From Tropicimonas sp. IMCC6043 (GTDB lineage: Bacteria; Pseudomonadota; Alphaproteobacteria; Rhodobacterales; Rhodobacteraceae), in assembly GCF_004146235.1 (NCBI RefSeq), contig NZ_SELO01000029.1, positions 1 through 48,433 on the forward strand: 48,433 nt of DNA, in the 5' to 3' direction. Numbering within the stretch: position 1 is the stretch's first letter; every line of letters begins with the position of its first letter. This document shows, one piece after another, positions 3,928-20,104 of the stretch. Position numbers and translations under genes: made by a program. The notes below the pieces were generated by a model. The model searched no databases and had not been told where the DNA came from. It saw only the letters and a program-made list of their open reading frames with translations.

Positions 3928-3961
3928 TGGCCCATCTCCCCAAGATCGAATCCCGGTTTAT

Positions 3962-3996
3962 AAACGATGCGTTTCGTTTCAAAACTTGTCAAGTTT
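3962..3996. promoter_or_regulatory. Probable TetR operator between divergent genes
   Basis: Two palindromes lie in the 116 bp between the divergent CPBP and TetR genes: AAACG-ATG-CGTTT (3962-3974, with the half-site CGTTT repeated at once) and a 15-bp perfect one, AAACTTG-T-CAAGTTT (3982-3996). Such sites usually bind the TetR homodimer and control both directions. Binding by the adjacent regulator is inferred from position. Confidence 0.6.
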
Positions 3997-4043
3997 CTCG
4001 AAATCGGCTTTACGAAAGGCGCAGCTTCGGATCAGACGAGTGA

Positions 4044-4637: not shown

Positions 4638-4836
4638 CCTGACCCTGTGCTGCTGCGAGTTGGAAGCGCGGCGCATATTTCGACATAGTGCGTGTCGTCT
4701 GGACGTCTGCTAGGTCCGCAGAACCGACCATGGTTAGCCGTGCGACGAACGTCCGGTTCTCAGAAATTGTCGACATTCGTTCTGACTCTAGAAATAGTCT
4801 CTTGTATCGTCGCTTCGGCCAAAGACGGAGTTCAAC

Positions 4837-5292
4837 ATGAAAATCTCGCTCGCTGCTGCCGTCGTCGTTGTGTCGACGTGCTCCGCGCATTCGCAGGAAG
4901 CGCAGACGCTTATCGACCACGCCGCCGCCGATTGCCGGTCGTTTGAGAACGGTGAGTTCGATCCGGGCGATGCATTGCAGCAGATTGAACTCCGTTCGCA
5001 GTTTGGGGCGGTCAAAGCGGAGCTCGTCGACGAAAGTAAATACTCATGCTCGACAGCGGCATCCCTTTACTGCGGGAGCGGCGGTTGCATGCTCAATCTC
5101 ATTGTGGACGGGTCTGTCATGGCTTGGCAAGCAACGGGCTGGCGACTTGTCGACTGGGGTCCTGACACCATCCTGTTGATCGGTCGCGATGGTGGCTGGT
5201 GTGGAGGTGCTGGCGCCGAGGTCTGCTATGAAGCCTTGGTATGGAGCAACGGAAAGATCCTTTCAGTTGGGCCCGCTCCAGAGCTACGCTAG
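4837..5292 (+). CDS. Exported protein of unknown function
   Basis: A 151-residue protein. It has a signal peptide (MKISLAAAVVVVSTCSAHSQ, cleavage after residue 20 likely) and about six cysteines in the mature part (DCRSF, YSCSTAASLYCGSGGCM, GGWCGGAGAEVCYE), suggesting disulfides in the periplasm. GGAG sits before the ATG at 4837. I recognise no named domain. The pattern resembles small secreted alphaproteobacterial proteins annotated only as hypothetical. The 199 bp before it hold no gene. Confidence 0.7.
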   Translation: MKISLAAAVVVVSTCSAHSQEAQTLIDHAAADCRSFENGEFDPGDALQQIELRSQFGAVKAELVDESKYSCSTAASLYCGSGGCMLNLIVDGSVMAWQATGWRLVDWGPDTILLIGRDGGWCGGAGAEVCYEALVWSNGKILSVGPAPELR

Positions 5293-5443
5293 CGCCGATG
5301 GATATGGAGTTGGGAAACAACTGCGCATTTGCCTACGTAGCAGACCTCGAAAAACGTCATCGACCAGCTCTCACATGTTGCCTGACTACAATCGGTTGTC
5401 TATTTGAACGCGTGCTGCAGTCCTTCGTTTTCGGAAAACCAGA

Positions 5444-6187
5444 ATGGTCATTGGCGCCGGAATAATACTCGCGACCGTTCTTGCGGTCTTCACGGTCTAC
5501 TTCGGCGTCCGCTCGGTACTTGAACCGGATCCGGAAGACCGAACACGTGACTTGGCCACGTCTGTAGTGTTCCGGATCTCCTCACTGCATGGCCTCGTCC
5601 TTGCGCTGGTTTTCGCATCGGAGGTTGTCGAATATCATTCCTTGGCATTCGAAAGCGCCAACGAGGTCAACGCGATCTCGGACGCCTACTACGATGCTGT
5701 AAGATATGGCGACGAGGCGCACGGTGTCCGTGCGGCCCTTCGAGAGTATGTTGCAATCGTGCCGTCCGAGGAGTGGCGCGGCCTCGGAAAGGAAGGTGAT
5801 CTTTCGCCAAGGGCTTGGGCACAGTGGAATGAAGCCTACCGTATCGTCTTGGACCTAACGCCCGTGTCGCCCAGACAGGTCGCCTTGCGGGACAATATGC
5901 TCAGAAAAATCCACCTGATCGCAGAAAACCGCGACCTCCGCGAGTATCAGGCCAACGCGGCTCTGAGTTCGTTTTTCTGGGCCGCAGCGCTCATCGGTGT
6001 CCTCCTGGTTTCGGTCGGCTTCTATATCTTTCCATCGAAACGCGACAATCTTGTCCTGCTCACGGTCTTCTCGGCCTACACAGGCCTGATCCTGTTCACG
6101 ATATACGCCATGTCTAATCCATTCAGCGATCCTGCGGCGCTGGAACCTGTACTGTTCTTTGAACTCTCGCAAGAATTTGAGGGCTGA
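5444..6187 (+). CDS. DUF4239 (bestrophin-like) membrane protein
   Basis: A 247-residue protein with the DUF4239 layout. There is one N-terminal helix, then FRISSLHGLVLALVFASEVVEYHSL with a second helix, a soluble helical middle rich in acidic and aromatic residues (EVNAISDAYYDAVRYG, LREYV), and two C-terminal helices (SFFWAAALIGVLLVSVGFYIF and LVLLTVFSAYTGLILFTIYAM). The family is compared with bestrophin channels, but its function is unproven. No strong ribosome-binding site precedes the ATG, and it stands alone. Confidence 0.72.
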   Translation: MVIGAGIILATVLAVFTVYFGVRSVLEPDPEDRTRDLATSVVFRISSLHGLVLALVFASEVVEYHSLAFESANEVNAISDAYYDAVRYGDEAHGVRAALREYVAIVPSEEWRGLGKEGDLSPRAWAQWNEAYRIVLDLTPVSPRQVALRDNMLRKIHLIAENRDLREYQANAALSSFFWAAALIGVLLVSVGFYIFPSKRDNLVLLTVFSAYTGLILFTIYAMSNPFSDPAALEPVLFFELSQEFEG

Positions 6188-6343
6188 GAGGTCAGGCATC
6201 AGTTTCCAAATTGAACGCCGACTCGAGGCAAATGTCGGGTGCTCGCCAGGGCCATCGACCGACTCCATTCAGCCCAAAACTTCAAAGCTTCATCAATCAT
6301 AAAGGTCTGTTTTGGGTTCTCTTGAGACATCTGACCATTTGAC

Positions 6344-6570
6344 TCAGATGTCCGCAACGTCGGCAAACCTGCCATCTGTGGCCTCGTTGGGCGAGACCTG
6401 ACGCTCCCTTGTCTTACAGGTCGGCTCCCTGCGCATTGCCGTCATCGAGCCGATCTCGCAGCTTCGCAGTTGCAGCAACGCTGCTTCAACCGGAAGCTGC
6501 CATTTGTGCCCGACGCGGCTAAGGGCAGCGAGGAGCCCATCTCGGACCTTCGGGTTGAGCGCAGCATTCG
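6344..6570 (+). repeat. Composite intergenic repeat, copy 1
   Basis: Starts around GTCGGCAAACCT (6359), passes CTGCGCATTGCC near 6430, CTTCGCAGTTGCAGCA (6462-6477) and ACCGGAAGCTGCC (6489-6501), then GACGCGGCTAAGGGCAGCGAGGAGCCC. All modules occur in the same order and orientation in other copies in this window. The whole 6188-6814 gap has no supported gene. Confidence 0.6.
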
Positions 6571-6814
6571 ACACTCAAGGCGGAACGGGGCCGTTCGTCA
6601 CACAAAGCTCTGAGGTCCGGTTCGGCGATTTTGGTGACTTCTGTGTCATCAGGCGGATACCCGCCATGGTACGACGATCGGAGCGTCGGAGAGCGAAGCT
6701 GCTCCCTATGGAAATAGCAGTACGGCCTCCCGAGGGACTTGCGAGAAAGAGCTTGCCTCGCCAGCGAATTCCCTGAAGGTGAAAGCGTTGGCGTGAGGTT
6801 GGGGGGACGGCGCG

Positions 6815-7123
6815 ATGATTTCGATACTTGCTTCGCTTCTTGCGGTGAACGCGGTCCTGCACGGGATGATCATTGCTCGCTTCGGCGTGAAGGGAAACGA
6901 GCCTCCGCTCGCCTTCGGAATCGCCTACGCCGCCCTCGCCGTCGGAGTGTTCCTGGCGATCCCCTACGCGCTCTGGGCCACCCTGATCGTCTCGGTCGTA
7001 GGTGTCGCGGGCCTTACGGCGGCCTATGCGAAGATTCCGCACGAGAAATCAGTGGAGCGCCTCTGTTGGGCACTGGGGGCGATTATCATCGTGCTCACAG
7101 CCTACCTCCTTTTCCTGCACTGA
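6815..7123 (+). CDS. Small multi-helix membrane protein of unknown function
   Basis: A 102-residue protein made almost wholly of membrane helices: MISILASLLAVNAVLHGMIIARF, AFGIAYAALAVGVFLAIPYAL, TLIVSVVGVAGLTAAYA and LCWALGAIIIVLTAYLLFLH, four helices in all. A strong purine-rich ribosome-binding site (GGGGGGA) lies eight bases before the ATG, which supports it as a real gene despite its isolation in a gene-poor stretch. I do not recognise a family; it could be part of a transporter or an immunity-type small protein. Confidence 0.68.
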   Translation: MISILASLLAVNAVLHGMIIARFGVKGNEPPLAFGIAYAALAVGVFLAIPYALWATLIVSVVGVAGLTAAYAKIPHEKSVERLCWALGAIIIVLTAYLLFLH

Positions 7124-7299
7124 GGGCGACGCTCACTCATCCCGGTGCTTCATGAAGGCCGAAGCATTGGCCCGCCCTCTGGACCTTTGCCGCGATAGGC
7201 ACAACGGCAGCTTCGTCGGGATCAGTGGCCTCTGTCTGGGCCATGGTGGAGGTCAGAACAGGGTCGTTCTTTATGGTTTGGGCTCAGCGAACGAAGGTC

Positions 7300-7560
7300 C
7301 ACTTCGTCCGCTGAGTCGGCTTTGATGTGTGGCGTGGCGAAGGTCCGGTCCTTGATCGCCATGCTGGATACCGGGCGACCGCGACGGGGATTGCTGCACT
7401 GCCGAGAATGACCGCGAAGTCGGCAAACTCGCCGTTCGATCCTGGTCGGCGGCGACCGGACCTCCCGCGCCAGCGCGAACGGCAGTGAACTGCGCATTGC
7501 GGCCCTTCAGCATTGGTGTTGGCTTCGCAGGTGCAGCAATGCCGATTTGGAGCACCCAAC
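7300..7560 (+). repeat. Composite intergenic repeat, copy 2
   Basis: Contains TTCGTCCGCTGA (7306-7317), AAGGTCCGGTCC, GTCGGCAAACTCGCCGTTCG (7419-7438), CTGCGCATTGCGG and CTTCGCAGGTGCAGCA (7523-7538). The first element matches GCTTCGTCCGCTGA near 12094. The right part is inside the inverted duplication, so it also occurs reversed at 16520-16570. Confidence 0.6.
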
Positions 7561-8870
7561 CACAAACCGGACGTTGGAGGAAGATGTGGCGAACGGCAGC
7601 GGGCAGCGGACATGAACGGTCGGGCATGCCGGCGACCTCCATGCGTGAGAGCGGTCACCATCGAACCGAGGCAGCACGGACAGCGGCTCGCCGAGAGTTG
7701 ACAGCCAAGACTGCGTCGAACGTCCGTCGCAGATGGGGGCTCAGTCGTGCTCTCGAAGGAACTCCGCGACCACGGCACAGTAGCGCTCGGGCTCCTCGAT
7801 GTGGGCGCAGTGGGCGCTGTCCTCGAAGATGACCACACGTGACTCCGGCAGACGTTGGTGCATGGTTTCGGAGCAGACAGGAGTGATCTCGTCATGGCGG
7901 CCGACCGTAATCAGCACCGGCTCGTCGATCTCGTGCAGCCGATCGGTACGGTCCCAGTCTTTCAGGTTGCCGATCACCGTGAACTCGTTTGGGCCATTCA
8001 TGGTCATATAGACCTGATTGCCGTCGAGATTGGCGACGGTGCGGTTGAGGCAATCCGGCCAGTCCGGCAGACGGCAGACATGTAGGCGATAGAAGGTTTC
8101 CATGGCGGAAAGGTAGTCGGGGTGGTCATAGGCGCCCGCAGCCCCGTGAATCCGCAGCGCCTCCCGATCGGCCTCCGACATCTGGCCGATCAACCGTTGT
8201 GCTTCGGTGACGAATTGCCGGGTCGAACTGGACGTGGATGCCAGGACAGCGCTCTTCACCCCTTTTGGCCGCCGCAACAACCATTCGATCGCGAGCCACC
8301 CCCCCCATGACTGGCCAAGTACGTGGCATTCGGTCAACCCGAGGGCGTCCCGCACCTCGTCGACCTCGTCGCAGAACCTTTCGACGGTCCAAAGTGTCGG
8401 ATCATCCGGTTGGTCAGACCGGCCGCAGCCGAGTTGATCGAAGAACACCACCGGGCGGTCGGCAGACAGCGCCTCAAGCGGCTCCAGATAGTCGTGTCCG
8501 GCCCCTGGTCCTCCATGGAGCAACAGCAGGGGCGTCCCCGATCCTTGGCCGGCGATGCGGTACCAGAGCTTGTAGCCGTTCCCGAGGGTGATGTGGCCGT
8601 CGTAACTCATAGGCGTTCTCCATTTAAGGTCGGTTACCGCGCAGGAGCGGTCAGATCGATTTTAAAAGAACTGTCAGCACTCAGTAAGCATCAGAGTGGA
8701 TGACACAGAACATCTCGAACCCCTCGCGGTTACCTGTCCCCAATGGAGTTCCTGATGACCGAAACCGCGTCAACGCCAGAGATTTTTGCGGTTTCCGCGC
8801 CGCCGCTCGACACTCAAGCCCAACCGGAAGATTCTGGATCGACCCGGCCCTAACCGCGGGGGAAGGTCAC
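7489..8870. repeat. Large inverted duplication, left arm, segment A
   Basis: These 1382 bp match 15189-16570 in reverse complement over equal length with no visible indel. They include a complete hydrolase gene and its upstream region. The match stops sharply at 7489 (ACTGCGCATTGC) and continues on the other side into segment B after a 530-bp interruption present only here. The encoded hydrolases differ at six positions of 289. Confidence 0.93.
7741..8610 (-). CDS. Alpha/beta hydrolase, proline iminopeptidase-like (S33), copy 1
   Basis: A 289-residue protein with the full S33 pattern: the HGGPG oxyanion motif near residue 33, GQSWGG around the nucleophile serine near 107, a late aspartate in GRHDEITP and the catalytic histidine in DSAHCAHIEEP. 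This matches proline iminopeptidases and tricorn-interacting-factor-like peptidases that release N-terminal residues from peptides, acting in the cytoplasm as there is no signal peptide. It is nearly identical to the gene at 15449. Differences lie at T7/I, T25/A, T and V to A and I in the LTECHV segment, D/E and E/K. All catalytic residues are kept in both. Product is confident; peptide specificity is not. Confidence 0.9.
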   Translation of the reverse strand: MSYDGHITLGNGYKLWYRIAGQGSGTPLLLLHGGPGAGHDYLEPLEALSADRPVVFFDQLGCGRSDQPDDPTLWTVERFCDEVDEVRDALGLTECHVLGQSWGGWLAIEWLLRRPKGVKSAVLASTSSSTRQFVTEAQRLIGQMSEADREALRIHGAAGAYDHPDYLSAMETFYRLHVCRLPDWPDCLNRTVANLDGNQVYMTMNGPNEFTVIGNLKDWDRTDRLHEIDEPVLITVGRHDEITPVCSETMHQRLPESRVVIFEDSAHCAHIEEPERYCAVVAEFLREHD

Positions 8871-8932
8871 TGGCAATCCGACAGTGATCCCTCACCTTGA
8901 CCGAGGTCATCAAGTTCCTAGGAAGAATTGTG

Positions 8933-8938
8933 TATAAT
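8933..8938 (+). promoter_or_regulatory. Probable -10 box (TATAAT) for the cytochrome c gene
   Basis: A consensus TATAAT lies 67 bp before the cytochrome start, in sequence that is otherwise GC-rich. No convincing -35 hexamer is at 16-18 bp. An inverted TTCCTAGGAA (8915-8924) sits directly upstream and may be an operator. It is inside the segment missing from the right arm. Confidence 0.45.
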
Positions 8939-9004
8939 TTGGCTCGTAAGATCCAGTTGGAGGCTAACAGGAAACAGTTCTTCATCAAGGAGAGGAGTTC
9001 CACA

Positions 9005-9409
9005 ATGAAAGGGATTTTCGCGATCTTTTGTGCTGCTCTCGTCGCCGCGCCTGCGCAATCCTTCGCCCAGGATGCAAACATCAAAGCGGGAGAGCGGGAG
9101 TATATAATAGCTTGCGCCGGATGCCACGGAGAGTCGGGCAAGGGCGATGGCCCTCTTGCGGGCCTTCTCGAGATCGAAACGCCCAATCTGACCACGATTA
9201 CCGAACGCACTGGTGGAGGTGACTTCCCGTTCCACAATACATTGCTACTAATTGACGGTCGCGACGTTCGTGCTCATGGCGGGGCGATGCCCATTTGGGG
9301 TGAGCGCTTCACGGCTTCGGCAACGAGCCAGCGTGGAGAGACCGACGACATGGTAGCCCGGGGACGCATCCTTTCTCTCGTCTACTACCTCGAGTCAATC
9401 CAGGAGTAG
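9005..9409 (+). CDS. Exported c-type cytochrome (class I)
   Basis: A 134-residue protein. A signal peptide ends at SFAQ (residue 22). One haem site follows, CAGCH (C37, C40, H41), and M95 in GGAMPIWG is the likely sixth ligand. It is therefore a soluble periplasmic monohaem cytochrome used in electron transfer to a dehydrogenase or oxidase. The real start is the ATG at 9005 after AAGGAGAGG; longer reading frames upstream lack a signal peptide. The gene sits as an island inside the left arm of the duplication. Its last codons (CAG GAG TAG) also occur at 15180-15188 without the rest of the gene. No partner enzyme is next to it. Confidence 0.9.
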   Translation: MKGIFAIFCAALVAAPAQSFAQDANIKAGEREYIIACAGCHGESGKGDGPLAGLLEIETPNLTTITERTGGGDFPFHNTLLLIDGRDVRAHGGAMPIWGERFTASATSQRGETDDMVARGRILSLVYYLESIQE

Positions 9410-9567
9410 AATCCAGGAGGCGAGTTCGGTTTCGACCGTCCGTTCCGTCCAAATCAGAGACTTCGCTGGCGCTTGCAGTGCGGGACCGGTCCCCGAGTGG
9501 TTTACGAATTGCCGGATGAGTGAAGTAGGGAGTGCTGCGCATGCAGCGAATGCCCGGTAGGTCGGCA
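9401..9567. repeat. Large inverted duplication, left arm, segment B
   Basis: These 167 bp match 15022-15188 in reverse complement with several substitutions, somewhat more diverged than segment A. The segment starts inside the last three codons of the cytochrome gene and ends at GTCGGCA, within the first core of the composite intergenic repeat. Confidence 0.88.
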
Positions 9568-9770
9568 GACTAGACCGTGGCCGGTCGGTTCGTTGCGGCT
9601 GTGAACCCTTAGCGATGGGAGGTCCGTTCACTGCGCTAGCTGCCGGTCACGGCGCATGAGCCCTTCGCAAGAGCAGCATCTTCGCTAGTACCGAAAGCCG
9701 CCGTTCATGGTCAGCGCGGCGAAAGACGGTGACGAGCCGAGAGCGGCCAGATTGAAATCGCTCAACGCCA
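9541..9770 (+). repeat. Composite intergenic repeat, copy 3
   Basis: ATGCAGCGAATGCCCGGTAG leads into GTCGGCAGACT (9561), GTTCACTGCGC (about 9627), CCTTCGCAAGAGCAGCA (near 9662) and ACCGAAAGCCGCCGTTC with a GCGCGGCGAAAG tail. The order matches copies at 12190 and 13200. The gap 9571-9971 otherwise holds no gene; the last 100 bp before 9972 are AT-richer and probably carry the amidase promoter. Confidence 0.6.
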
Positions 9771-9971
9771 TACCCAAGAATAAGATGGTCTCCCCTTGAT
9801 CTCCGAAGTGCGCGCCCTTCATCCAAAGGTCTCACGCCGAACTTGGCTCGCTAAAACAGATCAACCTGAAAATCCCCAAAACAGCTAAAATGACGTTGTT
9901 TCCCGTTTTGGCTCGGGACCTGCTACATTGCCTCACTGAATGAATCTTGTTTTGACATTGAAGGGGCAGAC

Positions 9972-10574
9972 ATGACTTCACACGCGCAGCGTTCCATCTA
10001 CCTGTTCAGCTGGCACGACCGCATCAACAACGGGGCAAACACCGTTGTGGGCAGACTGCGAAAAATCACCGATGTGACGGGGCTCGTGCTCCACCAAACG
10101 TCGTTCAACCGCGGCAATGACACGGGTGCCTACGATAAGATCAATGCACATTTTGTCATCCTTCCGAATGGAACGACAGTTACCAAATTCGACGAAACTG
10201 AGAATCGTCCCTGCTCGGGAGGCTTCAACTCTTACACGGTCGGTGTCGAGTTTGTCGGTAACTTTCCAATGGATAGCGGGAGTTGGTGGAAGGGAAATGC
10301 TAGCCATGACATGCCTAGCTGGGCTCAGATCCACGCCGGACGATGCTTGGTAAATTATCTCCAGAATGCCGTGGGAATCACCCATGTCTTCGCCCATCGG
10401 CAGACCGTGCCCGGCAATCGGCGTAGCAACTGTCCGGGGCCTCACATATGGTACAATGTCGGGGAATGGGCGATGAAACGCGGTTTGAGCGATGGAGGGC
10501 TGGGCTATGCCATTAAAGGCGGAAACCCCATCCCGGAGCTCTGGCGCGAGCAGCAATTCGACTTATTTGCGTGA
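9972..10574 (+). CDS. PGRP/Amidase_2-type N-acetylmuramoyl-L-alanine amidase
   Basis: A 200-residue protein with the fold of T7 lysozyme and peptidoglycan-recognition proteins. Putative zinc ligands are H41 (VLHQTS), H142 (VFAHRQ) and C154 (SNCPGPHIW); H60 of NAHFVILPNG lies in the position that usually holds the catalytic tyrosine/histidine block. GVEFVGN is also typical. These enzymes cut the bond between muramic acid and L-alanine of the peptide. There is no signal peptide or membrane anchor, as in phage endolysins or cytoplasmic effectors that need a separate release route. No holin, phage structural or secretion gene is adjacent, though the 14.3 kb gene looks phage-derived. Confidence 0.85.
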   Translation: MTSHAQRSIYLFSWHDRINNGANTVVGRLRKITDVTGLVLHQTSFNRGNDTGAYDKINAHFVILPNGTTVTKFDETENRPCSGGFNSYTVGVEFVGNFPMDSGSWWKGNASHDMPSWAQIHAGRCLVNYLQNAVGITHVFAHRQTVPGNRRSNCPGPHIWYNVGEWAMKRGLSDGGLGYAIKGGNPIPELWREQQFDLFA

Positions 10575-11008
10575 CCTTGCGGTGGTTTGCCGAAAAGCTG
10601 AACCGAAATCCACCACTTCTCGCACTCGGCGCGAATGCTCATTCCACTACGCGGTTTATTGAGGAAATGGAGTTAAAAGGGTCCCGATACAGGTCCAGCA
10701 GGGTTTCATTGCTCAAATCGATTGAGTGGCGGACTTCTCCTTTCCCTGACGGGTACAGCCTATAGCCAAAGTGATGAGCATTGCGTACGGCCGTTTTGTC
10801 CGCTGAGCGCCTGCTCGGGGACCTTTCGATGAATGGCAGCGTCTGAATGCAGCCGGAGTTCGTACAATTTGCAGCAAAAGCCGACTTCGATCCGAGAGCC
10901 GACGTATCATCCGGCATATGATTTCTGCTACCGGTGAAGAATGACTGCATCCACTCGACCTGGTCATCGACCGGGCAAAGTTCGGAGTGGGCATTTTCGT
11001 GTTTCCGA
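10575..11008. other. Gene-free stretch with repeat fragment
   Basis: No supported coding sequence. GTACGGCCGTTTTGTCCGCTGA at about 10785-10806 is shared, with two mismatches, with 12088-12109 and is a left module of the composite intergenic repeat. The rest shows no palindrome, terminator or RNA pattern that I can defend. Confidence 0.4.
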
Positions 11009-11908
11009 CTAGCAGTCGCCCGCTACCAACCAGGTTCGTGCCTTTTCGTTAGGCACAAGTTCAGCCAGGCGGCTGTTGAAAAGGTCGATTTCGGCTTGCG
11101 AGAGTTGGCCTTCCCACTTGCCAGAACTGCCGGAATCGAAAAAACCGGCGTCGGATTTCCAATAACCGGTACCTCCCACGGGGGCATAGTCGACTGCTCT
11201 GGCTTTCATGGCGCTAAAGGCGGTGGCCTCTGCGACCTGATCAATAAGCTCTGCATCGGCTTCAATGCCAGCTGCCCTGGCCAGATGTCGTACGGTGCGG
11301 TGACCGTCGCGCAACATGTCTGAATAGTGAGAGACGTTGAGGTTTGGATAGCGTCCGGAAAGGACAGTCTTGGAATAGTGGAGGGTTACAGACGCCAAGG
11401 TGTCTTTGTCAAAATCTTCCGGGTCCACTGGTTCGTCGATAAACCGCAGGATGGATTCCGGGACAGGTAAACTCATCGGATGATCCGGCGTGACCACTTT
11501 TTTGTTGGCTTCGTGTTTGCGTAGGGAAAAGAAGATGTCCAGCGGGTGTCGATAGACAGCAATTACTGTTACGCCGTCCCAGATCGGAAACCCGTCTGCC
11601 GGCGTATGGGTCTTTACAACCCGCCGCCCCTTTTGTCTGGCCAGGCTCGTGGCAACCTCATCGGCGGGAACCCCAAGGTCCGCGTCAACCCAGGGAGATA
11701 ATACCGGTATCTTTTCCTGCAGATGCGAACTGCCGTTCACAAGCATAGCGAGCATAGTTTGTGTCCAGGTCGTACCACATTTAGGCGGCGTGCACACAAG
11801 GATGTCACCCTTTCTCGGAGCCCACGTCGCCCAACGCAATGGGTCGGTGGTCGATCCGCGATACTCCCGGACCGCGGGTGCAAGAACTGGAGCATGGGCA
11901 TCCATCAT
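11009..11908 (-). CDS. PAPS-dependent sulfotransferase (Sulfotransfer_1 type)
   Basis: A 299-residue cytosolic-type sulfotransferase. The 5'-phosphosulfate loop is CTPPKCGTTWTQ (about 39-50), the general base is H101 in VKTHTPADG, and the 3'-phosphate-binding block is YRHPLD (119-124). GKWEGQLS near the C-terminus matches the conserved RKGxxGDWK-like element. The family moves sulfate from PAPS to hydroxyl or amine groups of small molecules, lipids or sugars. The first two codons are both ATG, so the start could be three bases later. No PAPS synthesis gene is adjacent. A second, unrelated sulfotransferase lies 0.5 kb away, with the same orientation. Confidence 0.9.
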   Translation of the reverse strand: MMDAHAPVLAPAVREYRGSTTDPLRWATWAPRKGDILVCTPPKCGTTWTQTMLAMLVNGSSHLQEKIPVLSPWVDADLGVPADEVATSLARQKGRRVVKTHTPADGFPIWDGVTVIAVYRHPLDIFFSLRKHEANKKVVTPDHPMSLPVPESILRFIDEPVDPEDFDKDTLASVTLHYSKTVLSGRYPNLNVSHYSDMLRDGHRTVRHLARAAGIEADAELIDQVAEATAFSAMKARAVDYAPVGGTGYWKSDAGFFDSGSSGKWEGQLSQAEIDLFNSRLAELVPNEKARTWLVAGDC

Positions 11909-12411
11909 CAGACGATTTCATGGTTCGGCAATTCAGGCAAGTCTCGCTGTTTCTTCTGATCACGCGTACTCATGCCACCCGCTTCCGGCTTGGCATCATC
12001 GGCCGCTACCGCGCATGCCTGACCCGTCAAGTTCCGTTTTGTCCGCTGAGTGAATATCCAACCCGCCACTGTGTGCCGAAGTCCAACGTACGGCCGCTTC
12101 GTCCGCTGATCGATCCTTGGTGTTGGCCGCCGCGAACGTCCGGTCCGCGAAGACATTGCGTATTCTCGGATGGGCGCTGATGGGAGTGCTGCGTTTGCAG
12201 CGAAGGTCTGGAAGGTCGGCAAACTCCCCGTTCGGTGGCACGAAGCGTTGGCTCTTGGACCGGACACGCCAGCGCGGTCGCTCACTGCGCTTTGCAGCTG
12301 TTGGTCGGTTTCGGGCAACGGTCCGGTGGTGCGGAAAAAAGCACGAATTCACTCTTACTAGGTTTAGGTCTTGGCCAGCATTTCCGGAGCCGCATGTGCC
12401 CGCCTCCGGCG
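11909..12411 (+). repeat. Gene-free stretch with composite intergenic repeat, copy 4
   Basis: Between the two sulfotransferase genes. Modules seen in order: GTACGGCCGCTTCGTCCGCTGA (12088), AACGTCCGGTCCGCGAAGAC, GGGAGTGCTGCGTTTGCAGCGAA (about 12182-12203), GTCGGCAAACTCCCCGTTCGG (12215) and CGCTCACTGCGCTTTGCAGC. This is the most complete left half in the window. The GCTGCG/CGCAGC-type sequences could form a short hairpin. Confidence 0.55.
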
Positions 12412-13041
12412 CTAGACTGGTTCTCCTCCCCTGCGCAGGCTGTCCAGTCGGGCGTTGGTTTCCATGAAATCGTGGGCTTCGTTCGAGCGGGGGAACGGTT
12501 CGTCCGGAACATCGCAGCCAAGGAAATCACACAGTCGGGTCCACCCCTCACCGAGGTCGTAGGTCAGAAGTCTGTCGGGTCCGAAAGCGGCCTGCACCTC
12601 GGCGGTATTGCGTTCGTAGGCCGCGATCATGTGATCCTTGTCCGTGATGTTGCCTTCGAAAACACCGTCACGGATCAGCGGAATGGCTACGGGGTTCGGA
12701 TCTGGCTTTTCGCGCAGAACGCGCAGGATTGTCTTCTCCATGCTGGTATACCAGGATTCGGCGCTGCGAACCGTCAGCAGGACTTTCGCCCGCGGATAGT
12801 GCTCGGCAATCTCGCGCCAGAACCTCGCTGCAGGCCAATCGACCGTCGCGCGATAACCTGCGAAGGCTTCGTCCCAGTCCGGAATTCGGCCAGACGCGGC
12901 ATCGCACCACATGTCGATGCGGTCGGGGCTGATAACTTCGCGCATGTGATAGCAAGGTCCGAACCCTAGTTTCTCGAGCGCCAGTTTCATGGATTCCGTG
13001 CCAGTGCGTCCGAAACCGGCACCGATGACGTCGAGGCTCAT
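12412..13041 (-). CDS. Sulfotransferase-family protein (Sulfotransfer_4 type)
   Basis: A 209-residue protein. The N-terminal GAGFGRTGTESMKLAL (7-22) is the P-loop-like 5'-phosphosulfate motif of the short sulfotransferase group, followed by YHMREV, the WDEAFAGYRATVDWPAARFW block and KVLLTVRSAESWY, the 3'-phosphate site. GWTRLCDFLGCDVP near the end is also typical. It shares a fold but not close sequence with the gene at 11009. Substrates for this group are mostly unknown. The neighbouring gene order (two sulfotransferases, then a GFA protein, all leftward, each with its own spacer) does not look like a tight operon. Confidence 0.87.
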   Translation of the reverse strand: MSLDVIGAGFGRTGTESMKLALEKLGFGPCYHMREVISPDRIDMWCDAASGRIPDWDEAFAGYRATVDWPAARFWREIAEHYPRAKVLLTVRSAESWYTSMEKTILRVLREKPDPNPVAIPLIRDGVFEGNITDKDHMIAAYERNTAEVQAAFGPDRLLTYDLGEGWTRLCDFLGCDVPDEPFPRSNEAHDFMETNARLDSLRRGGEPV

Positions 13042-13194
13042 TCAGGTCCCTCCCCCGATGGCTCGAAACGAGTAGATCACAGCGCGGTCTGAATTGCCAA
13101 GAACGGGTTCGATGTTGCGTTACCTGCTCCCGCGCCAGGCGAACACTGTAGCGATACCAATAACCGCTCTGGGGCTTTTTGCGGACATTTGATC

Positions 13195-13405
13195 CTTTCG
13201 CTCGGATGACCGAACTGTCGGCAAACTCCCCCTTCAGCGCCACGCGGCGCTGGCCCGCGACGCTGGCGCATCACGGCTGTCACTTCCTGCGCAATCCTGC
13301 GTTCACGCTGTGTGAGCGCTTCGCAGGTGCAGCATCATCCCTTGAACCGGAAGCCGCCGTTTGAGGTTGGCGCGGCGATTGGCGGTTAAGAGCCAAAGCA
13401 CTTTC
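13195..13405 (+). repeat. Composite intergenic repeat, copy 5 (most complete)
   Basis: GTCGGCAAACTC (13217), CGGCGCTGGCCCGCGACGCTGG, CTGCGCAATCCTGCG, CTTCGCAGGTGCAGCA (13319-13334), ACCGGAAGCCGCCGTT (13346-13361) and a GGCGCGGCGATTGGCGG tail all occur in one run, linking the left and right halves seen separately elsewhere. The repeat fills almost all of the gap between the Sulfotransfer_4 and GFA genes. Confidence 0.65.
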
Positions 13406-13441
13406 TTCCGACAAGCATTAACCGGACATTCAGGAATATTA

Positions 13442-13924
13442 TCAAATTTCTCCGTTCCTGGCTGCTTGGAAGGCTGCCGCGATTCCGGGATCGTCTTCTG
13501 AACGTGTCTGCGGAAGATCGCCGTCAATCTTGACCCAGGGCAATTTCGACTCCACGCCGAAATGAAATTCCAGCTCAACTTTTTCGGGGTGGTCGAGGGT
13601 CCCAATTGGAATCCAAACTATGTCCGGACCGGAAGGATCGCCTTTCTCGGGTCGGAAATCGTTCAGGCTGACCAAGTATCGGTCCCAGATCGGACTGCCA
13701 CATCTTCCGCAAAAACCGCGTTCCTTGATAGCGCCGGGCTCATGGAACATTGTAAGCGTGCCTTTGGTGAACTTGAGGGTCGCCGTAGGGAAGCCTACCA
13801 AGGCATAGTAGGGTCCGCCGGACCATTTCTGGCAACGCCTGCAATGACACAAACCAGCCGAGACAGGGTCTTCGTCACACTCGTACTTGATCGCACCGCA
13901 CAGGCATCCCCCAGTCCACTTCAT
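13442..13924 (-). CDS. GFA-family (CENP-V/GFA domain) zinc protein
   Basis: A 160-residue protein. Cysteine clusters match the glutathione-dependent formaldehyde-activating fold: CLCG (C7, C9), CHCRRC (C26, C28, C31) and GFCGRCGSPIW later in the domain, with the usual GAIKYEC strand after the first. Members bind two zinc ions. The original enzyme condenses formaldehyde with glutathione, but most homologues have no proven activity. The ATG at 13924 was preferred over upstream starts because the family begins with this short MKWTGGCLCG segment. The C-terminus is longer than in the 125-residue relative at 22992. Confidence 0.87.
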   Translation of the reverse strand: MKWTGGCLCGAIKYECDEDPVSAGLCHCRRCQKWSGGPYYALVGFPTATLKFTKGTLTMFHEPGAIKERGFCGRCGSPIWDRYLVSLNDFRPEKGDPSGPDIVWIPIGTLDHPEKVELEFHFGVESKLPWVKIDGDLPQTRSEDDPGIAAAFQAARNGEI

Positions 13925-14262
13925 GTGCGTCTCCAACGAGCCTGCATACGTCCATCGCAAGAAGGATATATCACATCTTGGGCGGCTTTTCCTAAGTCGT
14001 ATGATGCCCGGTCGCATCCGCCCGTTCCAAAGGCAACTATGTCCGCTGTGCTGACCTGCGTGCGGGTCGCCGCGAAAGTCCGGTCTGGTTACCGACGCCG
14101 GGTGCCGGGCGGGCATGTCGCGGAACTGATGCCGATGCAGCGAATAGCGGCAAGGTCGGCAAACTCGACATATTATTGCTTTGGAAATCTCCTCAAACCC
14201 CGTTATTATGTCAGCATAACTGCCCCTTTTCCGGCACACACAATGGCGACAAAGGCGACCCG
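13925..14262 (+). repeat. Intergenic stretch with composite repeat, copy 6 (partial)
   Basis: Contains GAAAGTCCGGTC (near 14076), GATGCAGCGAATAGCGGCAAG and GTCGGCAAACTCG (14155-14167), after which similarity stops at an AT-rich run that leads into the phage-like gene. Only the left module is present. No gene is supported here. Confidence 0.5.
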
Positions 14263-14802
14263 ATGACTGAAGACACAATCAACGACAAACGTGGCCCGGA
14301 CGGTCGCTTCCTGCCCGGCAACAGGCCTCCGAGATCCACTGGCCGCCCGCCTGGATCCAACGGCGTGAATGCACGAGCCGCCCACCTCGCCAACGAGTGT
14401 CTGGAGACCATGCTCGGCAAGGCCGCCGATGTCATCAACGCCGCCCTCGACGAGGGCGACAGCCATGTCGCGACATGGCTCATCGACCGGATCCGTCCGC
14501 TGAAGACAGCTGACTTCGTACGGATCGACATCGCCTCGGATCTCGAAACCCCTCGAGAGGCCGTGGAAGCCGCCAGAGAGGCCATTCTGGCCGCTGGCAG
14601 GGGTGAAGTCAGCATGTCCGAGGCGAAGGCCTACGTGGCGCTCCTTGAGCGTCTGGGAGGCATGCAGGGGTATCTTGAGCTGGAGCAATTGAAGGCGTCT
14701 CTTGAGGAGTTGAAGGCAAGCCGGGATCGGCCGCCGCTGCAACTGCCGGAGATTTCGCGGGTGCAATGGGGGCATGGTTCGGTTGATCGGGAGATTGGGT
14801 AG
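14263..14802 (+). CDS. DUF5681-like protein, possibly phage terminase-associated
   Basis: A 179-residue protein. Its N-terminus has the pattern GPDGRFLPGNRPP...GRPPGSNG, like the DUF5681 segment that precedes small-terminase-like proteins. A helical region follows (ECLETMLGKAADVINAALDEGD) and then a coiled coil, LERLGGMQGYLELEQLKASLEELKA. No large terminase or other phage gene is adjacent, so it is likely an orphan from a decayed element. A clearly homologous, broken copy lies at 45955-46240. ATG 14263 was chosen at the start of the conserved segment. Function is inferred from weak resemblance. Confidence 0.6.
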   Translation: MTEDTINDKRGPDGRFLPGNRPPRSTGRPPGSNGVNARAAHLANECLETMLGKAADVINAALDEGDSHVATWLIDRIRPLKTADFVRIDIASDLETPREAVEAAREAILAAGRGEVSMSEAKAYVALLERLGGMQGYLELEQLKASLEELKASRDRPPLQLPEISRVQWGHGSVDREIG

Positions 14803-15021
14803 ACTGCCATGTTCTCGGGAGGTGCGTGAATAATTCCGCTGCCTGCGCGGAGCCGGCACTGGTGTGCCCAAGGCAACGTCCGGTGTGCGAGCTATCCGGA
14901 TCTTTGGCTCGGATCGCTCAACCTTCGTTAACGGCCCACTGCCGTCATTCGTGCGTGCCGCTGCGAACGGCCGGAACGAGCCCTTCATGCCTGATTCTGC
15001 GTTCGGGACGAACTGGTAAAA
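14803..15021. other. Short gene-free spacer before the right duplication arm
   Basis: No gene. GCCGCTGCGAACGGCCGGAACGAGCCC near 14960 resembles a reversed or shuffled part of the composite repeat. Otherwise nothing is recognisable. Confidence 0.35.
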
Positions 15022-15188
15022 TGCCGACCTACCGGGCATTCGCTGCATGTGCAGCACTCCCTGCTTCACTCACCTGGCAACACGTAAACCACTCGGGGAC
15101 CGGTCCCTCACTGCAAGCGCCAGCGAAGTCTCTGATGTGGACAGAACGGACGGTCGAAACCGAACTCGCCTCTTGGATTCTACTCCTG
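15022..15188. repeat. Large inverted duplication, right arm, segment B
   Basis: Reverse complement of 9401-9567. It contains the last three codons of the cytochrome gene (CTACTCCTG in this orientation, 15180-15188) joined directly to segment A at 15189, with no cytochrome gene. The join shares a single C between the two original flanks. Confidence 0.88.
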
Positions 15189-16570
15189 GTGACCTTCCCC
15201 CGCGGTTAGGGCCGGGTCGATCCAGAATCTTCCGGTTGGGCTTGAGTGTCGAGCGGCGGCGCGGAAACCGCAAAAATCTCTGGCGTTGACGCGGTTTCGG
15301 TCATCAGGAACTCCATTGGGGACAGGTAACCGCGAGGGGTTCGAGATGTTCTGTGTCATCCACTCTGATGCTTACTGAGTGCTGACAGTTCTTTTAAAAT
15401 CGATCTGACCGCTCCTGCGCGGTAACCGACCTTAAATGGAGAACGCCTATGAGTTACGACGGCCACATCATCCTCGGGAACGGCTACAAGCTCTGGTACC
15501 GCATCGCCGGCCAAGGATCGGGGGCGCCCCTGCTGTTGCTCCATGGAGGACCCGGGGCCGGACACGACTATCTGGAGCCGCTTGAGGCGCTGTCTGCCGA
15601 CCGCCCGGTGGTGTTCTTCGATCAACTCGGCTGCGGCCGGTCTGACCAACCGGATGATCCGACACTTTGGACCGTCGAAAGGTTCTGCGACGAGGTCGAC
15701 GAGGTGCGGGACGCCCTCGGGTTGGCCGAATGCCACATACTTGGCCAGTCATGGGGGGGATGGCTCGCGATCGAATGGTTGTTGCGGCGGCCAAAAGGGG
15801 TGAAGAGCGCTGTCCTGGCATCCACGTCCAGTTCGACCCGGCAATTCGTCACCGAAGCACAACGGTTGATCGGCCAGATGTCGGAGGCCGAGCGGGAGGC
15901 GCTGCGGATTCACGGGGCTGCGGGCGCCTATGACCACCCCGACTACCTTTCCGCCATGGAAACCTTCTATCGCCTACATGTCTGCCGTCTGCCGGACTGG
16001 CCGGATTGCCTCAACCGCACCGTCGCCAATCTCGACGGCAATCAGGTCTACATGACCATGAATGGCCCAAACGAGTTCACGGTGATCGGCAACCTGAAAG
16101 ACTGGGACCGTACCGATCGACTGCACGAGATCGACAAGCCGGTGCTGATTACGGTCGGCCGCCATGACGAGATCACTCCTGTCTGCTCCGAAACCATGCA
16201 CCAACGTCTGCCGGAGTCACGTGTGGTCATCTTCGAGGACAGCGCCCACTGCGCCCACATCGAGGAGCCCGAGCGCTACTGTGCCGTGGTCGCGGAGTTC
16301 CTTCGAGAGCACGACTGAGCCCCCATCTGCGACGGACGTTCGACGCGGTCTTGGCTGTCAACTCTCGGCGAGCCGCTGTCCGTGCTGCCTCGGTTCGATG
16401 GTGACCGCTCTCACGCATGGAGGTCGCCGGCATGCCCGACCGTTCATGTCCGCTGCCCGCTGCCGTTCGCCACATCTTCCTCCAACGTCAGGTTTGTGGT
16501 TGGGTGCTCCACATCGGCATTGCTGCACCTGCGAAGCCAACACCAATGCTGAAGGGCCGCAATGCGCAGT
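15189..16570. repeat. Large inverted duplication, right arm, segment A
   Basis: Reverse complement of 7489-8870, exactly the same length (1382 bp). It ends at 16570, just before unrelated sequence (ATGCGGTCC) begins. It includes the hydrolase gene, its upstream sequence and about 250 bp after its stop. Confidence 0.93.
15449..16318 (+). CDS. Alpha/beta hydrolase, proline iminopeptidase-like (S33), copy 2
   Basis: A 289-residue protein, about 98 percent identical to the product at 7741, with all catalytic motifs intact (HGGPG, GQSWGG, GRHDEITP, SAHCAHIEEP). GGAGAACGCCT precedes the start in both copies, so translation signals are conserved. The few amino-acid changes are conservative except E to K before PVLITVGR. 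Because the upstream region is duplicated too, both genes probably keep their promoter. Conservation of the reading frame in both arms implies a recent duplication, selection on both copies, or gene conversion. Confidence 0.9.
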   Translation: MSYDGHIILGNGYKLWYRIAGQGSGAPLLLLHGGPGAGHDYLEPLEALSADRPVVFFDQLGCGRSDQPDDPTLWTVERFCDEVDEVRDALGLAECHILGQSWGGWLAIEWLLRRPKGVKSAVLASTSSSTRQFVTEAQRLIGQMSEAEREALRIHGAAGAYDHPDYLSAMETFYRLHVCRLPDWPDCLNRTVANLDGNQVYMTMNGPNEFTVIGNLKDWDRTDRLHEIDKPVLITVGRHDEITPVCSETMHQRLPESRVVIFEDSAHCAHIEEPERYCAVVAEFLREHD

Positions 16571-16849
16571 ATGCGGTCCTCTCGGAAACGAATGACTTAA
16601 CTGTTTAAACCCATGCTAGATAGTGAGCGTCCCCGATGTTCGGCAAAGGTCAAATCCAGCCCCCTCAACCAGAAATTACCAAAAAACAGACACTTACAGA
16701 CGCGCCCGCAAAAGCGCTCGTAAGCTGTTTTTTCTTGCTCACCACTAGCTCACCAAATTACTCGTTCTCCAGACGCGGCTTTGGCGATCGCGCGATGCGC
16801 ATCGCGAGGTAGGCGAATCGGTCGATGAAGGGCACATGTGAGATTTAGT
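16571..16849. other. Intergenic region between convergent units, includes a terminator
   Basis: Lies downstream of hydrolase copy 2 and downstream of the exporter operon on the opposite strand. Apart from the hairpin at 16681-16733 nothing is recognised. It is AT-richer than the surroundings. Confidence 0.5.
16681..16733. terminator. Bidirectional hairpin terminator
   Basis: CTTAC (16693-16697) pairs with GTAAG (16720-16724), and CGC with GCG inside. AAAAAACAG (16681-16689) pairs with CTGTTTTTT (16725-16733), giving a T6 tract after the stem on either strand. The position between convergent genes fits a shared rho-independent terminator. Confidence 0.65.
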
Positions 16850-17050
16850 TCAGGTCGAAGGTGGGGAGGAAAGAGCTGAGATATCCGCAACCACTTCGGT
16901 TCCGAAACGCAAGGGCGGTTCCGAGGTCCGATTCGTGACCGGGAAGATTGTGCGCGCGGTGCTCGTGGTTTCGGGTGCCGGCGAGAACTCTCCGCGTTCT
17001 GCACAGGCAGCAAGGGTCAAGGTAGCGAGGACCGCCAGCACTCGGATCAT
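16850..17050 (-). CDS. Small lipoprotein, last gene of the exporter operon
   Basis: A 66-residue protein with a lipoprotein signal: hydrophobic helix then LAAC (C16), followed by a short threonine- and proline-rich tail. Its ATG overlaps the ATPase stop (ATGA), so it is translationally coupled to the exporter. The mature part is too short for a domain, and its role may be outer-membrane or periplasmic assistance to the exporter. A shifted reading of the same DNA is possible but lacks the lipobox. Confidence 0.62.
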   Translation of the reverse strand: MIRVLAVLATLTLAACAERGEFSPAPETTSTARTIFPVTNRTSEPPLRFGTEVVADISALSSPPST

Positions 17051-17742
17051 GGCGTGCGGTCGTCAACGATGCGCCCATCCTCCAGCGTCACGATGCGGTC
17101 TGCCAGGTCAAGGATGCGGTTGTCATGGGTGACCATCACGGTCGTCGTGCCGCGCTCTCGTCCCAGGGCCTTGAGCATCTCCACGACCGTTCGCCCGCTT
17201 TCCTTGTCAAGCGCTGCGGTCGGTTCATCGGCAAAGACGATCTCGGGGTTTCCGACGAGGGCACGGGCCACGGCGACCCTCTGTTTCTGTCCGCCAGACA
17301 GGCTGCCGGGCAGATAGTCCAGCCGTTCGCCCAGCCCGACAAGGCCCAGCATGTGATTGGCCGCCTCGACATAGGCCGCCGAGGCGCCGCCTCCGTGAAC
17401 TTCCAGTCCGATCAACACGTTTTGTCTTGCGGTCAGGCTGCCATGCAGGTTGTGGGCCTGAAAGATGAAGCCGAGGCGGCGGCGCAGCGCCACCTGCTCG
17501 GCGGTCCGGGCACCGTTGAGTTCGTGATCGAGCAGGCGCACCGATCCGCCTTGGACATCGCGAAGACATCCCATGAGTGTCAGCACCGTCGTCTTGCCGG
17601 AGCCTGAGGGGCCCATCAGGATCGTCAGGCTGCCGCGTGGAATGGTGAGGTTAACGTCGAAGATCGCCTGTTTGCGGGCCTCGTTCTTGCCGAACCAGTG
17701 GTTCAGTCCGGTCACGCGGATGGGCGAGGCGACTTTGTTCAC
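17047..17742 (-). CDS. ABC exporter ATPase (DevA/LolD/MacB-like)
   Basis: A 231-residue protein with all nucleotide-binding motifs: Walker A GPSGSGKT (44-51), the Q-loop region FQAHNLHGSLT, signature LSGGQKQRVAVARAL, Walker B EIVFADEPTAALD and the switch histidine in VMVTHDNR. It is closest in style to the DevA subgroup that works with an FtsX-like permease and a HlyD-type adaptor. It starts eight bases after the permease stop. It would energise export through the envelope or from the outer leaflet of the inner membrane; cargo is not visible. Confidence 0.93.
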   Translation of the reverse strand: MNKVASPIRVTGLNHWFGKNEARKQAIFDVNLTIPRGSLTILMGPSGSGKTTVLTLMGCLRDVQGGSVRLLDHELNGARTAEQVALRRRLGFIFQAHNLHGSLTARQNVLIGLEVHGGGASAAYVEAANHMLGLVGLGERLDYLPGSLSGGQKQRVAVARALVGNPEIVFADEPTAALDKESGRTVVEMLKALGRERGTTTVMVTHDNRILDLADRIVTLEDGRIVDDRTP

Positions 17743-17750
17743 GGCGGGGC

Positions 17751-18920
17751 TCAGAACAGATCGGCCGGATCGGCGGCCGCGAGCCTGCGCGTCGCGATGG
17801 CGCCCGACAGCGCGCAGGCGGCCATGGTGCCGGCGAGAACCGCAAGCGCCGTATCCACGGTCATAACCAGCGGCAGCCCGGTCGCGGTATTGAGCGCGGC
17901 ATAGAGGCCAGTCGCGATTGCAATGCCCGGCACAAATCCGAGTGTGGCCAGGATCAGTGCCTCTTCCAGTATGATTGAGATAAAATACCGATGGGGATAC
18001 CCTACCGCTTTGAAAGTTGCGTATTCGCGCAGATGGTCGGCGACATCAGTGGACAGGACCTGATAGACGATCACGATCCCGACGAGAACGCCGATGACGA
18101 CCCCGAAGCCGAAGATGATGCCAGTGGGCCGCTCGGTCCCCTGGTATTGCTGGTCCTCGGCGATGGCATCGGCCATGGACCGGACGCGAAGATCGCCGCC
18201 CAGATCCCTGCGCAGCCGGTCAGCCACCTGCGCCGGATCGGCGCCGGGAGCGAGCCGGATCAGAAGATGGTTTGGCGCGCCGGACAACCGCCGCGGAAAC
18301 AGGGACAGAAAGGTCTGGTCCGAGACCAGCATGTACCCATCTGCGCTGAAGCCGACGCCACCCGTGAAAGCGCCGGTCACGCTCAGGGTCCGCCCGCCGC
18401 CTTCGAACGTTAGGGGCGTGGTTTCCGACAACGTGGCGACAAGCCCCGGCTCCAGCCTGCGGGTCATCCGGTCGATCACCGCAGTGTCCGCCCGCATCAG
18501 CGAGGCCGCGTGGGGAGCCAGGTTCGGCGCGAGGAAATCCCCCTTGTCCGGACCGATCCCGAAGGTCTGGAGCGCGGTGTCCCCGCTCGTCCGTGACCAG
18601 GTTAGCGTGCCGATATACAGCGCAGCACCGTCGGCTACATCCGGATCCGCCAGTGCCTGCCACAGATGCTGGCGCGCGACGTTGCCACCATCCGTCATCG
18701 TGTTGGCGTCCGGAGCCGAGATCAGGATGTCGGCACGAAACAGGTCATATCCCTGCGCAATGGTTCCATTTAGCGCGCCGGCGATCCCTAGCTGGACGAG
18801 GACGAGCACGTTGGCAAAGGACACGCCCGCGATGGCGGCCGCGAGTCTGCCGCGCGAATGGGTCAGCTGAAGCCAGCCCACAGGGAGTCGTCCGAGAATG
18901 CGTTGGAGAAGCCGAGTCAC
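17751..18920 (-). CDS. ABC exporter permease (DevC-like, FtsX/MacB fold)
   Basis: A 389-residue protein. The first helix follows QLTHSRGRLAAAIAGVSFANVLVLVQLGIAGAL, a large periplasmic domain of about 220 residues comes next, and then three helices of the FtsX domain (IIFGFGVVIGVLVGIVIVYQVL, ISIILEEALILATLGFVPGIAIATGLYAAL, and a last helix at ALAVLAGTMAACALSGAI). This is the DevC topology. Its ATG overlaps the adaptor stop by four bases. The pair of proteins needs the adaptor upstream and an outer-membrane TolC-type channel, which is not in this window. Confidence 0.92.
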   Translation of the reverse strand: MTRLLQRILGRLPVGWLQLTHSRGRLAAAIAGVSFANVLVLVQLGIAGALNGTIAQGYDLFRADILISAPDANTMTDGGNVARQHLWQALADPDVADGAALYIGTLTWSRTSGDTALQTFGIGPDKGDFLAPNLAPHAASLMRADTAVIDRMTRRLEPGLVATLSETTPLTFEGGGRTLSVTGAFTGGVGFSADGYMLVSDQTFLSLFPRRLSGAPNHLLIRLAPGADPAQVADRLRRDLGGDLRVRSMADAIAEDQQYQGTERPTGIIFGFGVVIGVLVGIVIVYQVLSTDVADHLREYATFKAVGYPHRYFISIILEEALILATLGFVPGIAIATGLYAALNTATGLPLVMTVDTALAVLAGTMAACALSGAIATRRLAAADPADLF

Positions 18921-20104
18921 AGAGCGCCCTCGATTTCTATGTGAGCAACGGCTTCAAGGTTCGACAGACGCGCGGCGCGAGCAGAACTGTCGGCGTCCAG
19001 TCGCACCAGAACCTCAATAACGCGGGCATCCGTATTGGCCGCCGCGTCGTCCGAGACAAGGTTCTGCCGCCCGACGACAAGTCCGATCCGCTCCACTTGG
19101 CCGGTCAGGGGCGTATCGAGGGGGGCGGCGGTCAGTCGCACCGGCTGGGCTTCACGCACGCGTCCGATCTCGGTCTGGTATATCTCGACGCGCGCCACCA
19201 TCCGCTCGGTTTGGCCCAGCGTCATCAAGCCGTCCGAACCGGGCCGTTCGCCGGGACGGCTGTCGATCTCCAGCACGACGCCTGAGATCGGTGCTCGCAC
19301 TTCCGACCGGGCCAGGTCGCGCGCGGCGCGCTCGAGGTCGATCCGTGCTGCATCGCTTGCAGCCTGCGCGATGACGATGTCCGGGTGGGTGCCGATTTCC
19401 CCGGTGTCCCATCGCGCAAGCGTCGCGCGCGCCCTCGCCAGACCTTGCGCAGCCTGCGCCGCTGCGGCTTGCAGATCATCCAGTGTTGCTGCCGTTGTCA
19501 CACCACGCTCTGCCAGAGCCCGCGCTCTCGCGAGGCGGGTTTCGGCAATTTGCGTTGCCGCCTCAGCCTCGCCGACCGAGGCCCGCGCTTCCAGAAGGCC
19601 GATGCGGACCGTCTCGCGCGATTGGGCAAGGGCGGCTTCGCGCTGCACAACAGCTGCCTTCGCCGCGAGGCGCGCGCTTTCAAGAGCCGGGCGGTTGTCG
19701 AGCACGGCGAGCAGATCGCCGGTCGCGACCCGATCGCCTTCAGACACAAGGATCTCCGCTATACGCGCGTCCGCCGCACCGAAGGGGGGCGACACACGGA
19801 TCAGATCGCCGTCCGGCATCAGCCTTGCGAGCCCCAGGACAGGGCGGGACGCCTCGGCGATCGGGATAATCGCCTCGGATTGTGCCGGCAGCGTCCCTGC
19901 CGCCCCGTCCACAAGGTCTGCAAGGCCGGCGAAGGCCTCCGGTTCCCGCACGGTCGCAAATACCCCGCCAGTTACGAAGGCGGTCGCGACAACGGCAAGA
20001 ACCAGTAGTTTGCCTGCCCACTTCGAGCATGCACGAGCCATCTTCTTTGGAAGCTGGACTTCGAGCGGCAAAGGGGGGGCGCCCGGATCGACCTTCTTCA
20101 GCAT
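18917..20104 (-). CDS. HlyD-family periplasmic adaptor (DevB-like)
   Basis: A 395-residue membrane-fusion protein. One N-terminal helix (LLVLAVVATAFVTGGVFATV) anchors it, and a lipoyl half-motif lies around VSEGDRVATGDLLAVLDN. A long alanine- and arginine-rich coiled-coil hairpin follows (about residues 140-235), then the second lipoyl half (RSEVRAPISGVVLEIDSRPGE) and a beta-barrel. It bridges the ABC permease to a TolC-like channel. Its start codon lies just inside the end of the broken DoxX frame, so the two were once or still are coupled. Confidence 0.92.
   Translation of the reverse strand: MLKKVDPGAPPLPLEVQLPKKMARACSKWAGKLLVLAVVATAFVTGGVFATVREPEAFAGLADLVDGAAGTLPAQSEAIIPIAEASRPVLGLARLMPDGDLIRVSPPFGAADARIAEILVSEGDRVATGDLLAVLDNRPALESARLAAKAAVVQREAALAQSRETVRIGLLEARASVGEAEAATQIAETRLARARALAERGVTTAATLDDLQAAAAQAAQGLARARATLARWDTGEIGTHPDIVIAQAASDAARIDLERAARDLARSEVRAPISGVVLEIDSRPGERPGSDGLMTLGQTERMVARVEIYQTEIGRVREAQPVRLTAAPLDTPLTGQVERIGLVVGRQNLVSDDAAANTDARVIEVLVRLDADSSARAARLSNLEAVAHIEIEGAL

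Follow-up and report, generated by a model that had tools for sequence, protein, structure and literature searches.

A contig of the draft genome of Tropicimonas sp. IMCC6043 (NZ_SELO01000029.1, positions 1 to 48,433; the whole 48,433-nucleotide (nt) stretch analysed is called the window) carries two long, nearly identical arms in opposite orientation, each with a hydrolase gene. The locus raises the question of whether this inverted repeat may flip the DNA between its arms, as a preliminary description of the sequence had suggested, or the trace of a past duplication, and, in the latter case, how the copy was made. Our analysis makes it probable that the repeat is an inverted segmental duplication, scarred by repeats and by an insertion sequence (IS), with an outer part that is younger or has been homogenised, in a repeat-rich mosaic stretch. 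Below, C numbers denote contigs, G000 denotes the genome of the strain itself, and G003, G004 and G008 denote other genomes in the comparison.

The repeat is made up of an outer and an inner pair of arms:

7489 to 8870: left outer arm (1382 nt), defined by alignment to 15189-16570
15189 to 16570: right outer arm (1382 nt), defined by alignment to the left outer arm
9400 to 9567: left inner arm (168 nt), with the last codons of a cytochrome gene and part of a dispersed repeat
15022 to 15189: right inner arm (168 nt), which has base 15189 in common with the right outer arm

The outer arms are 99.06% identical over 1382 nt, with 13 mismatches and no insertion or deletion (indel), and because the BLAST E-value is 0, chance similarity is ruled out. 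The alignment thus bears out the preliminary description in its account of two indel-free arms of this length whose hydrolases differ at six of 289 residues. The end that it assigned to the repeat does not hold, since the second inverted pair (168 nt, 94% identity, 10 mismatches) extends the repeat inward. The two pairs overlap by base 15189 on the right and are separated by 529 nt on the left. The left unit spans 7489-9567 (2079 nt) and comprises the hydrolase gene, the 3' remnant of an IS3-family element, a cytochrome c gene and a repeat core; the right copy lies in mirror orientation, is 1549 nt long and is therefore 530 nt shorter. Overall, the copies differ by one 530-nt indel and 23 further differences, all of them substitutions. 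The longest difference-free stretch of the outer arm measures 282 nt and corresponds to its last 282 nt, including the IS remnant.

The difference in length between the copies lies at the edge of this remnant:

8727 to 8869, + strand: 3' part left over from a truncated IS3-family IS, closed by the right terminal repeat (...GGTCA); 88% identity to the corresponding end of the G000:C74 element
15190 to 15332, - strand: mirror IS remnant in the right arm, by sequence match
9005 to 9409, + strand: gene for a small c-type cytochrome of 134 amino acids (aa), in the left copy only (Cytochrom_C, 22.8 bits, cut-off 21.3)
8870 to 9400: 531 nt on the left that align to the single base 15189 on the right

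Because base 15189 is assignable to either side, the 530 nt absent from the right copy are 8870-9399 or 8871-9400. They begin where the IS remnant has its terminal base, within this one-base ambiguity, run into the final codons of the cytochrome open reading frame (ORF; 25.1 bits against Cytochrome_CBB3, below the cut-off of 27), and carry almost the whole of that gene, of which the right copy retains CAG GAG TAG, the end of the ORF. At eight homologous places in the same genome, the genus and the family, the cytochrome aligns to residue 134 (seven places) or 133 (one). Because these homologs reach the C-terminus, CAG GAG TAG on the right is a leftover of a lost gene, indicating a deletion from the right copy and not an insertion into the left one. 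The ends of the deletion have only one base in common, so that direct repeats did not cause it. We infer that the right copy lost its cytochrome gene by an IS-adjacent deletion.

The identity of the remnant follows from the longer element at C74 (1255 nt, TGACCTT... to ...GGTCA), the OrfB of which scores 220.1 bits against the IS3-family model NF033516 (cut-off 160) while its OrfA gives a partial match of 51 bits, under the cut-off. The remnant matches the C-terminus of OrfB, in the GYLSPMEFLMT frame, as well as the right terminal repeat, and its last base, 8869, corresponds to the last base of the C74 element; it is also 83% identical to a second, interrupted copy at C265. With 143 nt left per arm, neither remnant is a complete IS3-family element. 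Nor do the arms form a composite transposon: with the C74 IS as the sole query, the window yields the two remnants at an E-value of 3.6e-48 and six other stretches (14-43 nt, E-values 0.18-0.62), none of which lies at the outer ends. The earlier remark that no transposase lies at either end agrees with what this one query shows at the outer ends, but it is incomplete, since the remnant and its mirror are found on the inner side. Elsewhere in the window, at 44748-45647, there is a second IS3-type transposase gene (rve, HTH_21), the translation of which is about 23% identical to that of the C74 IS.

The two parts of the repeat have diverged to different extents. The outer 1382 nt differ at 0.9% of sites (13/1382) and the inner 168 nt at 6% (10/168; Fisher p=5.6e-5), and the difference persists when only non-coding outer sites are set against the inner part (3/512 vs 10/168, p=9.6e-5). 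Judged from these substitutions, either the inner part would have diverged first, with recopying or gene conversion of the outer part following, or two separate duplications would have taken place. The alternative that survives best is an inverted duplication made in one step by template switching, with the difference between 94% and 99% identity due to chance or local mutation. A single event is simpler, and it fits copies that, the 530-nt deletion aside, differ by substitutions only; we nevertheless regard it as rather unlikely, because the heterogeneity is significant at the non-coding outer sites alone and because the outer arm, over its last 282 nt and with the IS remnant included, is free of differences.

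The ends of the arms lie in dispersed repeats, with crossing copies counted as distinct places over own-genome and relative loci:

7302 to 7507: dispersed repeat A, containing the left outer arm end 7489; copies at five places in G003 and G004 cross 7489 with at least 10 nt on each side
16552 to 16676: dispersed repeat H, containing 16570, where the right outer arm ends; crossing copies, with 16-19 nt on the arm side of 16570, occur at G000:C106 and G004:C9
9528 to 9572: core of a D1-family dispersed repeat at the left arm's inner end, 82% identical to the reference copy
14932 to 15046: dispersed repeat G, containing the right inner arm end 15022; one crossing copy, at G003:C46

The outer end of the unit lies in a short core, ACTGCGCA..., that is common to two different dispersed repeats, and it is at ACTGCGCA that A gives way to H. 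With weaker support, the inner end of the unit also lies in a dispersed-repeat core. These repeats, as seen in window 7302-16676 and in contigs of G000, G003 and G004, form families of about 100-200 nt with common short cores; one of them, at 12107-12283, has matches in seven of 40 genomes searched, six of these among the nine of the genus and the seventh weak. A search of titles and the openings of abstracts returned no description of them, and one may exist in print. At G000:C1 (1147-3659) a copy of window 12196-12483 is interrupted by about 2.2 kb; both edges of the interruption carry window bases 12357-12361, the pattern expected of a transposon insertion.

More generally, gene-sized segments shared between contigs end near such repeats. 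In one test, 43 of 134 ends did so, compared with 12.7 for random non-ORF positions (standard deviation (sd) 3.1, maximum 23 in 300 draws). When the repeat library was taken from the window and ends outside it were counted, 13 of 111 lay near repeats against 5.7 (sd 2.2), and after removal of the pairs that involve the window 11 of 99 did so against 4.5; in each case one of 500 draws reached the observed number. That dispersed repeats coincide with segment ends more often than by chance may be part of the reason why orphan genes accumulate in genomes of this kind.

Altogether, these results support a history in which ectopic recombination or template switching between dispersed repeats would have copied the 2079-nt unit, an IS-adjacent deletion would have removed the cytochrome gene from the right copy, and the outer 1.38 kb would later have been copied again or gene-converted. 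The last step would account for the 0.9% divergence there as opposed to 6% in the inner 168 nt. The contig would thus display rearrangement in layers: an inverted duplication, a deletion adjoining the end of an IS, and a stretch that is younger or has been homogenised. The mode of copying, which the preliminary description had called unclear, is narrowed by the IS3-family remnant that borders the deletion and by the dispersed repeats in which the unit ends.

Several observations weigh against this history. Adjacent deletions are documented for IS150, which belongs to the IS3 family, in the part of PMC11708052 on which we draw; the same part states that adjacent deletions by IS903 (IS5 family) need both IS ends, whereas here the IS is identically truncated in both arms. 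If this need applies, the deletion would have preceded the truncation and the copying of the outer part would have followed, or another IS end would have been involved. At the left inner flank, no copy among the own-genome and relative loci crosses 9567 by 10 nt. The contigs in the segment-end tests were mostly picked because they match the window, the control positions being drawn from the same contigs, and fragments of the segments themselves may have swelled the repeat track behind the count of 43 of 134; the more stringent test (13 of 111) gives a weaker result. Repeat cores at segment ends are barely more frequent than in the interiors of the same repeats (38 vs 26.2, 33 vs 22.4, 33 vs 26.2 and 32 vs 33.8, over 448 ends). 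Finally, when 18 relatives were aligned with both hydrolase copies, the ancestral residue was not clear at any of the six differing positions; no close outgroup was found that would polarise these changes, and it is the divergence that carries the case for a second copying or gene conversion. As a separate candidate, site-specific recombination at the repeat cores was considered and rejected, because the cores are not clearly enriched at segment ends and a specific breakpoint motif is unsupported.

The DNA between the inner arms (9568-15021, 5454 nt) contains five accepted ORFs that together cover 3159 nt (58%), so that the term gene-poor, applied to it earlier, is only moderately true:

9972 to 10574, + strand: Amidase_2 gene, by family match; related segments in G008 (86%) and at C11 of the same genome (96%)
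11009 to 11908, - strand: Sulfotransfer_1 gene, by family match; 97% copy of 10800-12106 at G003:C157
12412 to 13041, - strand: Sulfotransfer_4 gene, by family match; 92% copy of 12284-13134 at G004:C9
13442 to 13927, - strand: GFA-family gene, by family match; only its end lies in a close copy (13287-13536, 98%, at the end of C292 of the same genome)
14263 to 14802, + strand: ORF without a known family; 96-97% copies at C106 and C74 of the same genome

For four of these five genes (the amidase, both sulfotransferases and the ORF without a family), close copies stand as segments of their own in the genus or in the same genome, indicating that the interior is a mosaic of single-gene segments. 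A phage origin of ORF 14263-14802 was considered and rejected, given that it has no Pfam or PHROG family and no match in the phage collection. The window itself holds, at 46063-46233, an inverted 91% copy of 14548-14715, a part of this ORF, and pieces of the same segment recur at C106, C74, C93 and C79 of the strain. Beside the right arm, 17047-20104 carries exporter genes of the DevA/DevC type, with DevA and DevC over their cut-offs; ORF 18917-20104 would be the adaptor of this exporter, as judged by its position, which is that found in related plasmids. Scans of the window with Rfam, at gathering scores, and for tRNA genes found nothing.

It is tempting to speculate that this genus uses its dispersed repeats as joints for the integrase-free exchange and duplication of single-gene segments (here hydrolase-cytochrome, amidase, the two sulfotransferases, GFA and the ORF without a family), with the inverted pair as one recent product; we hold this wider proposal to be a doubtful one. 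The role of these repeats at the ends of gene segments could be the potentially new part of our results.

The hydrolase genes bear most directly on whether the arms serve as a switch:

7741 to 8610, - strand: hydrolase copy 1, 289 aa, proline-iminopeptidase family (TIGR01250, 322.6 bits, cut-off 167.65; Abhydrolase_1)
15449 to 16318, + strand: hydrolase copy 2, 289 aa, different at six residues (TIGR01250, 321 bits, cut-off 167.65)

Ten codons are changed between the copies, six non-synonymously and four synonymously, and the resulting pN/pS of 0.47 is not distinguished from neutrality (p=0.26). Both copies score above the curated cut-off and have, at residue 99, the motif GQSWGG, which we take to be the nucleophile motif of the family; S101, D240 and H267, presumably the catalytic residues, are invariant across 20 aligned sequences, making proline-iminopeptidase-type activity a prediction for both. 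Both genes point outward, and the 260-nt stretch upstream of each, inside the arm, is identical in the two copies. Within the 293-contig draft, this contig alone matches the hydrolase part of the arm, and the matches of the arm on other contigs of the strain consist of the IS remnant and the cytochrome part.

Across 394 sampled genomes of the family, that of the strain included, only the latter has a match to the hydrolase at E<=1e-80; among 59 other relatives, three have homologs at E<=1e-60, with 42-45% identity, and none of the eight genus mates does. Because no close relative was found, there is no single-copy state or orientation to compare: the comparison with related genomes that had been proposed as a check was run, and the gene pair is in no other genome of those searched (393 at E<=1e-80, 59 at E<=1e-60). 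A search of genome contigs gave 124 relatives; the 80 kept, from which the 18 aligned above were drawn, show 40-66% identity and are too distant to polarise the differing residues. Plasmids gave no near match of 3900-17100; a distant search gave 33 records that match the outer arm (32 from Rhizobium and one from Rhodovulum), none over 80% of the arm, and the 20 listed of these 33 are 69-70% identical over 12-15% of it. Viral contigs gave no pattern match for the hydrolase.

A pair of 1.38-kb inverted arms with 99% identity is a suitable substrate for homologous recombination, and occasional inversion by this ordinary route is possible. The draft genome holds a single arrangement of the DNA between the arms, which is compatible with a minority of flipped cells. 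An inversion switch goes further, in that flipping of the 5.5-6.3 kb between the arms would change the expression of the genes in it. Since the hydrolases are transcribed outward from identical 260-nt upstream stretches, a flip is expected to exchange no promoter at the arms; moreover, no other contig of the draft matches the hydrolase part of the arm, and four of the five genes between the arms recur elsewhere as separate segments. For these reasons we consider such a switch very doubtful as an explanation of the locus, and a regulatory or functional switch unlikely. Of the earlier suggestion, the competence of the arms as a substrate stands, and inversion itself is a possibility. As a switch the inverted pair is without support; as ordinary genome scarring it is instructive. 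That one arm is a misassembled copy, as a draft in 293 contigs might invite one to suspect, is highly improbable, because the copies differ by their 23 substitutions and the 530-nt deletion and because both outer flanks have counterparts elsewhere that cross the junction.

Placing the inverted segmental duplication beside known systems brings out what is particular to it. With repeats that undergo homologous inversion it shares long, near-identical arms in opposite orientation a few kb apart, but it has no promoter or gene fusion at the arms and is present in the draft in one arrangement. Arrays of integron cassettes resemble the stretch in having single-gene segments with repeats of about 100-200 nt between them. 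We rejected such an array as a candidate, since the genes here lie in both orientations, none of the six matches of the genome to the integron integrase model TIGR02249 (best 79.1 bits) is over the cut-off of 265, and there are no strong palindromes: eight repeat stretches folded as single-stranded DNA gave z-scores between -1.57 and +1.55, with no strong attC-like folding. Finally, the IS150-associated rearrangement with an adjacent deletion, as far as the part of PMC11708052 used here describes it, is alike in that a deletion abuts the end of an IS3-family element with a duplication nearby. In the present case, by contrast, each arm keeps a 143-nt remnant with the same truncation, the acting element is not in place, and the duplication is inverted and reaches beyond the IS on both sides.

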